A stretch of DNA of 64,000 nucleotides from Puniceicoccaceae bacterium (GTDB lineage: Bacteria > Verrucomicrobiota > Verrucomicrobiia > Opitutales > Coraliomargaritaceae): assembly GCA_902587165.1 (NCBI GenBank), contig CACIKF010000001.1, positions 1 to 64,000 of the forward strand. The letters are read 5' to 3'. Shown in pieces: positions 54,857 to 58,744 of this stretch (the first letter of the stretch is position 1; each line of letters starts with the position of its first letter). The position numbers and the translations under genes are program-made. The notes under the pieces were generated by a model that was not told where the DNA came from, did no database searches, and was given only the letters and a program-made list of their open reading frames with translations.

Positions 54857-56401
54857 TTAAGCGGAAAACCCAGTCTTCCACTCTTCGAGTGATGACTTTA
54901 AAGCTACTTCGGATTCGTCACTAATTGCTTTGTCGCTACGGATTCCATCCATGACCTTAGAGCCCCGAGTCTCGAGGAACTCGCGGAGGCTAGAAGTCGC
55001 TTCAACTATTTTTGCGACATCAATCGCATCGAAGAAACCATTTTGCACAGCATAGATCAGAGACGACTGCACTTCGACAGGGATGGGATTGAAAGCAGTT
55101 TGCTTGAAGAGCTCAACCACACGTGCGCCACGCTCAAGCTGAGCCTTTGTCTTCGCGTCGAGATCAGAACCGAACTGAGCGAATGCTGCAAGCTCGCGAA
55201 ACTGTGCGAGCTGAAGCTTCACCTTACCAGCTACCTTCTTGATTGCCTTGATCTGGGCCGCAGAACCAACGCGAGACACGGAAAGACCGACCGATACCGC
55301 TGGGCGGATGCCTTGATTAAACAAATCAGTCTCGAGGAAGACCTGCCCGTCGGTAATCGAAATCACATTGGTAGGAATGTAAGCCGAAACGTCACCTGCT
55401 TGTGTTTCAATAATCGGAAGCGCTGTAAGTGAACCATTACCATTATCCTCATTCACACGAGCCGAACGCTCGAGAAGGCGTGAATGGAGATAAAAAACAT
55501 CACCAGGATACGCTTCACGCCCTGATGGACGTTTCAGCACCAAGGAAATTTGACGATAGGCAACCGCTTGCTTGGAAAGGTCATCATATACGATGAGAGC
55601 GTCCATGCCATTGTTCATGAAGAACTCCCCCATCGATGCGCCAGAGAATGGTGCGATGTATTGGTTGGCAGGATTGTCACCAGCAGAAGCAGCAACAATA
55701 ATGGTGTATTCCATCGCACCGGCCCTCTCAAGGACAGCAATGGTGCGAGCAATGTTCGAATTCTTCTGACCTACGGCAACGTAAATTGAGTAAACAGGCC
55801 GGAAGTTTTCTGGGAAAGTTTCGTCTTCGTTACGATGCTGGTTATTGATCTTCGCCTGATTGATGATCGTGTCGATCGCGATAGTAGTCTTGCCCGTCGA
55901 GCGGTCACCAATGATGAGCTCGCGTTGACCGCGACCGATGGGAATCATCGAATCGATCGACATGATGCCCGTCTGCATCGGCTGATCGACAGATTTACGT
56001 GGAATAATACCAGGTGCGACTTGATCCACCGGATAGGTTTCGCTGGAGTTGATTGGACCCTTGCCGTCGATTGGATTACCAATCGCGTCAACCACGCGGC
56101 CAAGAAGCCCCATGCCAACAGGCACGGAAAGTAGGCGTCCAGTTGTGGAGGCTTCATCACCTTCCTTCAACTTGGAGTAGTCGCCTAAGATAACGCAACC
56201 GACTTCATCTTCTTCAAGATTCAAGGTGATTCCGAAGACGCCCTGACCGAAATCGATCATTTCGTTGTACATTGCACCGGACAAGCCCTCAAGCTTGGCG
56301 ACGCCATCTGCGATGGCCACGATTCGACCGGTGTTGGATTTGACAGCGCCAGCTTGGAAGCTAGCGATTTCGTTTTCAATTTGTTCGACTATAGAGCTCA
56401 T
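54857..56401 (-). CDS. atpA: ATP synthase subunit alpha
   Basis: Non-catalytic nucleotide-binding subunit of F1. 514 residues. Walker [17 protein letters not shown] (about 170-185), [15 protein letters not shown], Walker [18 protein letters not shown], then arginine-finger region [17 protein letters not shown] (about 360-376). Preceded by atpH and followed by atpG. Confidence 0.96.
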
Positions 56402-56442: not shown

Positions 56443-56838
56443 TTAGTTAACACTTTCAGCGAGGCGCTGAAGACGACCGGCTACGGACGCATCATAGACA
56501 TCGTCGCCCACGCGCACACGCACGCCAGCTATCAAAGAAGTGTCTGGTTGAGTGACCGCATTGACTGGGCGCTTGTAAAGCTTTGAAAATTGCGCTTCGA
56601 TCGCCCTCAGTGCATCGTCGCTTAAGCCGGTAGGCGTTGAAACGACCGCGGTCTGGAGAGCGACCTCACGGCGAAGATAGTTGAGGAAAGTCTTGAGGAC
56701 TGCAAGGCGATGGCGGTGCTTCACCTGTTGGAAACCAGCAAGGACCTCAGCCACTTTGGATCCAGTCACAACTCCGTTGTCCATCGAAAGCTCAAGGAGC
56801 TTCTTGGCTAACTTAGTGATCTTTTGGTCGCGCTTCAT
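56443..56838 (-). CDS. atpH: ATP synthase subunit delta, N-terminally short
   Basis: 131 residues against about 175-185 in most bacteria. The C-terminal domain is normal: TPTGLSDDALRAIEAQFSKLY, then DTSLIAGVRVRVGDDVYDASVAGRLQRL. The part that remains in front (KLLELSMDNGVVTGSKVAEVLAGFQQV) aligns with the second half of the usual six-helix N-terminal domain, so roughly 50 residues are missing. The gap to atpF is only 21 bp, so there is no room for the lost part upstream. Delta links F1 alpha subunits to the b stalk. Identity rests on the C-terminal motif and the operon position. Confidence 0.85.
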   Translation of the reverse strand: MKRDQKITKLAKKLLELSMDNGVVTGSKVAEVLAGFQQVKHRHRLAVLKTFLNYLRREVALQTAVVSTPTGLSDDALRAIEAQFSKLYKRPVNAVTQPDTSLIAGVRVRVGDDVYDASVAGRLQRLAESVN

Positions 56839-56859: not shown

Positions 56860-57519
56860 TTAGTTGCCAGCGCTAGACAATTCTTTGGCAGCGGAATCAG
56901 AGAATGTTTGCTTCTCTGCGTCCGAAAGGTCGCGAGATAATACAGTTGCCGAAGTTGCGACTACGAGCCGCGCGACTTCTTGACGGACATCGGAAAGCAT
57001 CTTTTGGCGCTCCAGCTCAGTCGCTTCACTCGCCTTGCGGATGATTGCTTCAGCTTGTGCCGCAGCTTCTTGTGTTTTCTGTTCAATCATCTCCTTCGAC
57101 TGTTCGCGAGATTCTGCCAAGATAGCTTGTGCAGCTACAGCGGCTTCCTTAATCTTATCGGCACGCTCACGCTCAGCAGCAGCGAGTTGCACTTTCATTT
57201 CTTCAGCATACTGAAGACCATCGGCAATTTTTTGTTGGCGCTCATCCAAAGTCGCAGCAATTGGTTTGACGGCAAATTTGTAGAGAACAAAAGCGACAAT
57301 GCAGAAATTAACCATCTGCGCGATCAGTGTTGGCCATGAAATACCGAAATTACCAGCCAGTTCGGAGATCACTCCCCCGCCTTCCGCAGGTTCAACGCTT
57401 TCGGTATGCTCGACATCTGCGCTAGTACTAATGTGCGAATCAGCGTGAAGGTCTTCCGCTGAAAAGAGTCCCAGCGGGAAGGATAACGCGAAAAGCAAAG
57501 TGATAAAAGTAGCCTTCAT
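56860..57519 (-). CDS. atpF: ATP synthase subunit b with N-terminal signal-like extension
   Basis: 219 residues, longer than the usual 155-170. The first 20 residues ([20 protein letters not shown]) resemble a cleavable signal peptide, followed by an acidic 40-residue segment. Then comes the true b membrane helix (about 61-82, [21 protein letters not shown]) with the [19 protein letters not shown] start of the coiled coil, and a long Ala/Glu-rich helix to about 190. With signal cleavage the acidic segment would lie in the periplasm, an N-out/C-in layout. Peripheral stalk of FoF1. Confidence 0.88.
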
Positions 57520-57597: not shown

Positions 57598-57816
57598 TTA
57601 GCCAGCCATCTTACCAAGGAAGATAGCAAAGAAGACGATCGCTTCAGCAAAAGCCATAGCGATAATCGACTGAACAAGTACTTTAGTCGCCGCTTCAGGA
57701 TTGCGACCGACAGCTTCACAAGCTTTAAAGCCAATGAGACCAATACCGAGAGGAACGCCGATTGCTGCTGCTGCCACGTTAATGTTTCCAGAGATTTCTG
57801 CGATTAGATTGAACAT
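57598..57816 (-). CDS. atpE: ATP synthase subunit c
   Basis: 72 residues, two membrane helices joined by the loop EAVGRNPEA. The ion-binding carboxylate is Glu58 in MAFAEAIVFF. The Na+ ligand positions known from Ilyobacter (a Gln in helix 1 and a Ser/Thr after the Glu) are occupied by Ile and Ala here, so a proton-type ring is inferred. Between atpB and atpF. Confidence 0.95.
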   Translation of the reverse strand: MFNLIAEISGNINVAAAAIGVPLGIGLIGFKACEAVGRNPEAATKVLVQSIIAMAFAEAIVFFAIFLGKMAG

Positions 57817-57904: not shown

Positions 57905-58744
57905 TTAATGTGCTTCTTCGTCGTGATTAGTCATCAAGCCGATATAAATGGCAACAAGGAGAGTAAAAATAAGTGCTTGGACCACGCCAACAAGGACCTC
58001 GTAAAGGTAGAAAGGGATCGGGACTAGGTAAGGTGCCATGCCCGTCATACTGGTCAAAAGATTCTCACCCCCAAATACATTACCAAACAAACGAAAAGAA
58101 AGTGAAATCGGACGAAACGCGATCGAAACCACTTCGATGAGACCAACCATGAGGAAGATGGGTGCCAATATAAGGTAAATTGCTTTAGGTGTTTCTTTTT
58201 TATCCGCCTTATTGCCAAAGAGCTCCCAAACAAAGAACTTGGGACCAGCGATCTTTAGACTGATAAACAGCCACGCGATCATTGCCACGAGTGCCATGCC
58301 GAAAGTTGCGTTTAGATCTGCACTGGCAGGGCGCATCCAATATTTTAGATGGCCGTGGTCATCATAAAAACCAAAGACTCCTACCCCTGGAATCAAACCA
58401 CTCCAATTGTGAATCATGATGAAGATAAACAAACCAATGAGTAGTGGAAATGCCATCGAGAAGGCCTTTTTGCCTACAATGGGAAGCAGCAGGTCGCGTA
58501 AGCCACCCACTAAATTTTCAACAACAGCTTGCCCCTTTCCTGGGACTAATTTCGGGGTGCCCACCGAAAACCGAATCACTAGTATGAGAAGAATCGAGAT
58601 TGCCCAAGTAGTCAGTATCGAATTGGTTACTGGTAGACCAAATATCTCCGTCAATTTATAGGGGGACGGACTCACACCATCCGCTGCGCTGAGAAACGAT
58701 GCACTGCTTAAAAAAGCTAAGACTGTGAGTAGTAATTTGTTCAC
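57905..58744 (-). CDS. atpB: ATP synthase subunit a
   Basis: 279 residues; stator half-channels of Fo. The N-terminus ([20 protein letters not shown]) looks like a cleavable signal peptide, then about six membrane helices. The essential Arg lies in [18 protein letters not shown] (near residue 215). The GLVP-like [13 protein letters not shown] segment is about 117-129. The start is a GTG at 58744. First gene of the operon; no atpI is seen upstream. Confidence 0.93.

Follow-up and report, generated by a model that had tools for sequence, protein, structure and literature searches.

A compact ATP synthase delta subunit with an internally deleted N-terminal domain as a lineage trait in one class of Verrucomicrobiota

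The window, i.e. the whole stretch of 64,000 nucleotides that was analysed, carries an ATP synthase operon with the gene order atpB-E-F-H-A-G-D-C, and all features described here lie on its minus strand. The a subunit is encoded by atpB (57905..58744), the c subunit by atpE (57598..57816), the b subunit by atpF (56860..57519; 219 amino acids) and the alpha subunit by atpA (54857..56401; 754 bits against TIGR00962). Judged by eye, AtpF (57349-57519) and AtpB (58680-58744) both begin with a signal-peptide-like sequence. The delta gene atpH (56443..56838), identified from its open reading frame, the family profile PF00213 and an AlphaFold2 model, starts with ATG and encodes a compact protein of 131 amino acids. 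It has the gene position of the PF00213 family, between atpF and atpA, and is separated from atpA by 41 bases. The atpF stop codon is located 21 bases upstream of the atpH start codon and the atpH frame is open for just 7 codons above its ATG, so nothing is hidden upstream. A reading made from the sequence alone had described this delta as short and without upstream space for a lost piece, and it was right on both counts: in one comparison set, full-length deltas of the phylum have 177-188 amino acids.

PF00213 (OSCP) matched AtpH with 61.8 bits (cut-off 22.3), but the match covered only residues 46-129, corresponding to positions 87-171 of the 172 in the profile. Against the ATP_synt_delta equivalog TIGR01145 the protein scored 50.1 bits, below the cut-off of 57.5. 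The AlphaFold2 model (pLDDT 90.6) has helices at residues 2-17, 26-37 and 44-62 followed by the C-terminal domain, and its N-terminal piece reached pLDDT values of 84-94 by block. The best structural matches of the model were the solved delta subunits of P. aeruginosa (Z 11.0, 127 residues, rmsd 5.5) and E. coli (6oqr; VIA Z 10.9, 124 residues, rmsd 5.8), the latter alignment extending from residue 2 to 130 of the model and from 2 to 174 of the E. coli protein; delta of Bacillus PS3 (6n2y) gave a Z of 10.4. The C-terminal b-binding domain (residues 63-131; 56446..56652) is present according to both the PF00213 match and the structural matches over residues 61-131. AtpH is a variant of the PF00213 delta/OSCP family and not a typical member.

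The position of the loss was deduced from alignments of short and full-length deltas. When 15 short deltas (one of them cut) were compared with 12 full-length deltas by hhalign, both ends aligned and the gaps fell inside. Segments were examined with hhalign on 70 short and 36 full-length deltas and 150 column shuffles. With residues 1-40 as the query, residues 1-26 aligned without gaps to residues 1-26 of the full-length form at a score of 32.5, which none of the 150 shuffles reached (mean 10.4, best 16.7). With residues 39-70 as the query, residues 45-69 aligned to full-length residues 91-115 at a score of 17.2, the best of 150 shuffles being 17.1. Among deltas in which our script could place both the start and the GG motif of the C-terminal domain, the distance between them was approximately 100-105 residues in the short and 145-151 in the full-length proteins. 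An N-terminal truncation or a misplaced start was rejected because of the end-to-end alignment and the short open frame.

Taken together, the alignments show that the loss is internal and comprises approximately 46 residues, which by alignment correspond to helices 3-5 of a six-helix N-terminal domain. These helices were assigned from the sequence alignment and the six-helix count given in the literature, and the missing ones were numbered with what we take to be the helix boundaries of E. coli delta. The six helices of the canonical delta/OSCP N-terminal domain are described in the available part of a review; the AlphaFold2 model of AtpH has only three. Residues 2-17 (56788..56835) are the equivalent of canonical helix 1 according to the model and hhalign. 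The second helix of the model (residues 26-37; 56728..56763) sits directly after the helix 1 match and is called canonical helix 2 by continuity only. The junction at which about 46 residues are absent was placed by hhalign at residues 38-42 (56713..56727), and R42 at this junction is invariant in our alignment A4. The third helix (residues 44-62; 56653..56709) corresponds to canonical helix 6 by the model and hhalign. AtpH thus shares with canonical delta/OSCP (6oqr, 6n2y) its gene position, its C-terminal domain and, by sequence, its first helix, but has 131 instead of approximately 175-190 residues and by alignment lacks helices 3-5. The earlier suggestion that the first part of the N-terminal domain is missing was not confirmed: the first helix is there, as the gap-free alignment of residues 1-26 indicates.

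The N-terminal piece was also predicted on its own (pLDDT 80.4). Foldseek returned 27 rows, none with E ≤0.001 and none a delta, and in a VIA comparison with 64 chains the best match was an anti-sigma factor domain (Z 4.8) and no solved delta appeared. This means that the three-helix cap is either remodelled or too small for a fold search.

Among 56 close genomes, that of the window included, 53 had a delta match. The sole full-length match belonged to an extra gene in a genome of the same genus (G003; handles for genomes, loci and families are ours), which also possesses a short delta. G003 shows 7% contamination, and its extra delta, found with a piece of the operon on a 4-kb contig (L002:1-3035), is probably a contaminant. 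Apart from this copy no normal-length atpH turned up in the close relatives, and the original observation stands. In a class-wide sample a delta match was found in 137 of 139 genomes; six were full length and all six belonged to family f85. An additional match in G385 covers positions 98-165 only and was missed by a profile of the short delta, hence it probably represents b from a second operon. The short-delta profile matched 127 of 130 class genomes. In 121 of these the match ran over almost the full length; in those of f85, six in number, it began only at position 18-30. Within the class, full-length deltas were confined to these six genomes and the extra copy of G003.

In a sample of 288 genomes from the phylum, 172 had a delta match, and the full-length ones among the matches listed were labelled as belonging to the same phylum, none to the host's class. 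The 116 genomes without a delta match (at least 90% complete) presumably have other ATPase types. A further scan for relatives used a query from this group and is hence no test of other phyla; the best 80 of its 323 relatives were all titled Verrucomicrobia or subgroups thereof, one of them Akkermansia muciniphila. In 79 of these 80 loci delta had 130-132 amino acids (two with a GTG start), and in the remaining one (L148) the script had picked an internal start.

A tree of 59 alpha sequences placed all 35 rows with a short delta on one branch (SH-aLRT 99), and this sampled tree supports a single origin of the short form. Three members of f85 branched outside this clade. The f85 loci (L161:1-3701, L162:1-2514, L163:1-3501, L164:1-3601, L165:1-3601 and L166:1-3601) carry a full-length delta and a long alpha, and their operon was possibly replaced by transfer. 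Conversely, families f33, f71 and f77, which belong to other classes, carry a short delta and a short alpha (L076:1-2901, L077:1-2801, L078:1-2801 and L080:1-2701). Because they are nested within the clade of the host's class in the alpha tree, their operon was probably transferred. One locus from another class (L079:1-2801; two delta matches in the genome) encodes a delta of 147 amino acids with a smaller internal deletion and yet a long alpha N-terminus. That the short delta has the anatomy of an internal deletion and at the same time is a lineage trait of the class seems to us almost certain.

A second peculiarity was noted at the N-terminal helix of alpha (residues 1-30; 56312..56401), which is approximately 6 residues shorter than in enzymes with a full-length delta. 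A script set the start of alpha at the last Met lying 28-40 residues ahead of a conserved DG motif; some genomes were fetched twice, and the counts leave out L079, four N-ATPase-like loci and L004, in which the motif reads DS and the distance is 31 by eye. Of 130 short-delta loci, 129 had the nearest Met 30-31 residues before the motif, and in the remaining one (L028) alpha begins 30 residues before it, by eye. In long-delta loci the distance was 35-38 residues (37 of 37), and in f85, with its full-length delta inside the class, it was 38 in 6 of 6 loci. Every short-delta locus examined thus showed an alpha shortened by about 6 residues. Since the short forms make up one clade in the sampled tree, this pairing of alpha and delta counts as one evolutionary event, and covariation as replicated evidence was discarded for the same reason.

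The available text on OSCP describes helices 1 and 5 and helices 4 and 5 as holding two of the three alpha N-termini. For E. coli, the part of PMC5214741 available to us states that the peripheral stalk contacts all three alpha N-terminal helices via three different interfaces. With helices 3-5 gone, the first two of these anchors should be removed or crippled and the third left, and we consider it likely that the double alpha clamp has been lost. The proposal that the missing helices normally hold the alpha N-terminus therefore agrees with the OSCP literature as far as helices 5 and 4 are concerned, but those missing are the internal helices 3-5 and not the first ones.

Among the solved structures is the ATP synthase of Chloroflexus aurantiacus (PDB 9itj, 9itk and related entries), whose entries contain on average two copies each of delta and a, four of b and ten of c (12 delta chains in 6 entries, 72 b in 18, 36 a in 18, 180 c in 18 and 18 alpha in 6). 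It provided the best PDB matches for both AtpB and AtpE. For a of the window the E-value was 2.8e-29 (next 8.6e-20) and for a of G074, a second member of the class, 3.2e-30 (next 4.6e-16), whereas with a control a from a full-length-delta relative in the phylum C. aurantiacus came last of 18 (6.9e-8). For c of the window it was best with 1.9e-7, followed by 1.9e-5, in a search that had no control sequence. For b of the window C. aurantiacus led in a near tie (3.8e-15, next 1.1e-14), and the control b preferred Bacillus PS3 (3.9e-14) to C. aurantiacus (7.9e-12); the comparisons of a and b involve one control genome. In direct comparison a of the window scored 132 bits with a of G074 and 39-59 bits with a from eight full-length-delta loci, several of which were cut at the locus edge. 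Among solved a subunits, that of C. aurantiacus is by a clear margin the nearest in sequence to a of the window.

C. aurantiacus delta has 157 amino acids, and in the state 2 entry both listed delta chains have only 69-70 residues modelled. The short-delta profile placed it first in the PDB, narrowly (68.3 against 64.6 bits), but delta of 9itj was not among the six hits of a PDB search with the single delta sequence of the window and ranked 24th in a fold search with its model. Alpha of the window showed no special closeness to C. aurantiacus alpha. A reduced delta N-terminal domain is common to both enzymes, though to a different extent, approximately 22 residues being absent in C. aurantiacus and approximately 46 here. 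The C. aurantiacus deletion lies roughly before helix 5; it is known from its matches and not from full sequences, hence the rough placement. The alpha N-terminus is unshortened there, approximately 5 residues longer than in the window by the alignment offset (residue 21 of the window corresponds to residue 26 of the chain).

Other ATPases that do without a complete delta N-terminal domain differ from the present one in organisation. N-ATPases (TIGR03321) have no atpH and a long b with a delta-like C-terminus, and they too are devoid of a full delta N-terminal domain. In the window, by contrast, delta has a gene of its own and the C-terminal end of b is ordinary. Members of family f24 possess a second ATPase operon (L167:1-3501, L168:1-3501, L169:1-3501 and L170:1-3301; b open frame of 249-259 amino acids) in which b ends in a domain like the C-terminal one of delta, without a delta N-terminal domain. 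This operon looks like an N-ATPase, and a b subunit with such an end might also allow more than one stalk. In an engineered Bacillus PS3 enzyme, as described in the available text of PMC12229609, removal of delta residues 2-104 and fusion of the remainder to alpha resulted in up to three stalks, and each stalk came with an a subunit. The conclusion drawn there is that the N-terminal domain of delta keeps the enzyme to a single stalk, and a natural delta-alpha fusion in Acidaminococcus fermentans is also noted (PMC12229609). As described there, the engineered enzyme (9jc1) and the Acidaminococcus fusion likewise lack the delta N-terminal domain, which occupies the three-fold axis; in the window only an inner part of this domain is lost, and separate genes encode delta and alpha instead of a fusion.

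In the best explanation, to which as a whole we give about even credence, AtpH is a functional delta (OSCP) subunit and belongs to a separate lineage of F-type ATP synthases. An ancestral internal deletion removed approximately 46 residues (helices 3-5 by alignment) from delta, and the remainder is a three-helix cap (helices 1, 2 and 6) on an intact C-terminal domain. The computations show this deletion, its spread over the class, the single clade of its carriers in the sampled tree, the shorter alpha N-terminus that accompanies it and the clear affinity of a to C. aurantiacus a; what follows goes beyond them. The C-terminal domain would still tie a b2 stalk to one alpha N-terminus, and the clamp on the three-fold axis of the head, which holds the other two alpha N-termini, would be lost. 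Because it is the N-terminal domain of delta that limits the number of stalks to one, each head would then probably have two (or more) delta-b2 stalks with matching a subunits. For more than one stalk per head we see the chances as evenly poised; a point against it is that in the engineered enzyme delta had to be fused to alpha by design, and here the two are separate. More tentative, and falling just short of an even balance, is the extension that nearly the whole class has two or three stalks and as many a subunits by way of the delta deletion and the trimmed alpha.

Alternatively, the enzyme may have one stalk as usual, with the cap atop the head and helix 1 alone gripping the shortened alpha N-terminus, in which case the paired shortening of alpha would be the compensation. 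It fits this arrangement that helix 1, one half of the alpha groove, is retained with its conserved positions, that alpha is short wherever delta is short, and that confidence in the N-terminal piece is good within the whole model. On the other hand, the alignment indicates the loss of helix 5, which makes up the rest of the groove and contributes to the second alpha site, and the solved enzyme nearest in its a subunit carries two stalks. We take the single stalk to be a serious possibility, which we doubt slightly more than we credit.

It is very unlikely that AtpF or another protein supplies the missing helices, so that a clamp would be put together again from several parts. AtpF with its 219 amino acids does exceed E. 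coli b in length, and the sequence-only reading had concluded that the peripheral stalk may be built differently. A change in stator attachment is indeed plausible, but the length of AtpF does not provide the compensation. Residues 64-213 of AtpF match a b subunit of normal length (residues 6-155 of E. coli b), residues 1-57 constitute an N-terminal extension with, by eye, a signal-peptide-like start, and the C-terminal end is ordinary. In profile coordinates b ended at a median of 190 in 103 short-delta cases (range 189-203) and of 189 in 30 long-delta cases (range 185-200). Compensation by AtpF for the lost helices was ruled out on the basis of the b alignment and these end positions. With a profile built on the complete N-terminal domain, matches appeared in 30 of 144 genomes of the phylum; every one of these was labelled as outside the host's class, none belonged to f85, and the genome of the window gave no match. 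In six genomes of the host's class a search for a split-off N-terminal-domain gene gave nothing better than E 0.0102, the controls being 2.5e-32 and 1.4e-39 (the latter with a row in the profile). For recognisable pieces a split gene was ruled out by these searches, which covered the six genomes and the class members of the 144-genome sample; such a profile sees related pieces only, and an unrelated replacement is invisible to it.

A sequencing error, a misassigned start or gene decay, with the length itself as the sole point in its favour, can be practically discounted. The length is constant across the host's class, where the near-universal short form speaks against the sequencing error considered earlier and its class-wide spread rules out recent decay. 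In many loci, moreover, delta starts close to the point where atpF ends or overlaps it, positions are conserved all along delta and the predicted fold is confident (pLDDT 90.6).

A literature search of titles and abstract starts, with few subscription journals, yielded no report of a shortened delta in these bacteria; with most subscription journals outside its coverage, it also yielded no paper on the C. aurantiacus ATP synthase. The short delta is a new form. For C. aurantiacus, structures of an F-ATPase that contains two delta and four b subunits are already in the PDB, which makes the multi-stalk reading less novel but more plausible. If this reading is true, the enzyme would be a natural counterpart of the engineered enzyme with a high H+/ATP ratio, making ATP at low proton-motive force, and the C. 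aurantiacus enzyme would gain a much wider setting. The questions raised are how many stalks and a subunits a natural F-ATPase has and whether the H+/ATP ratio is raised. The natural loss of approximately half of the delta N-terminal domain makes the idea that this domain limits the number of stalks testable in cultured organisms.
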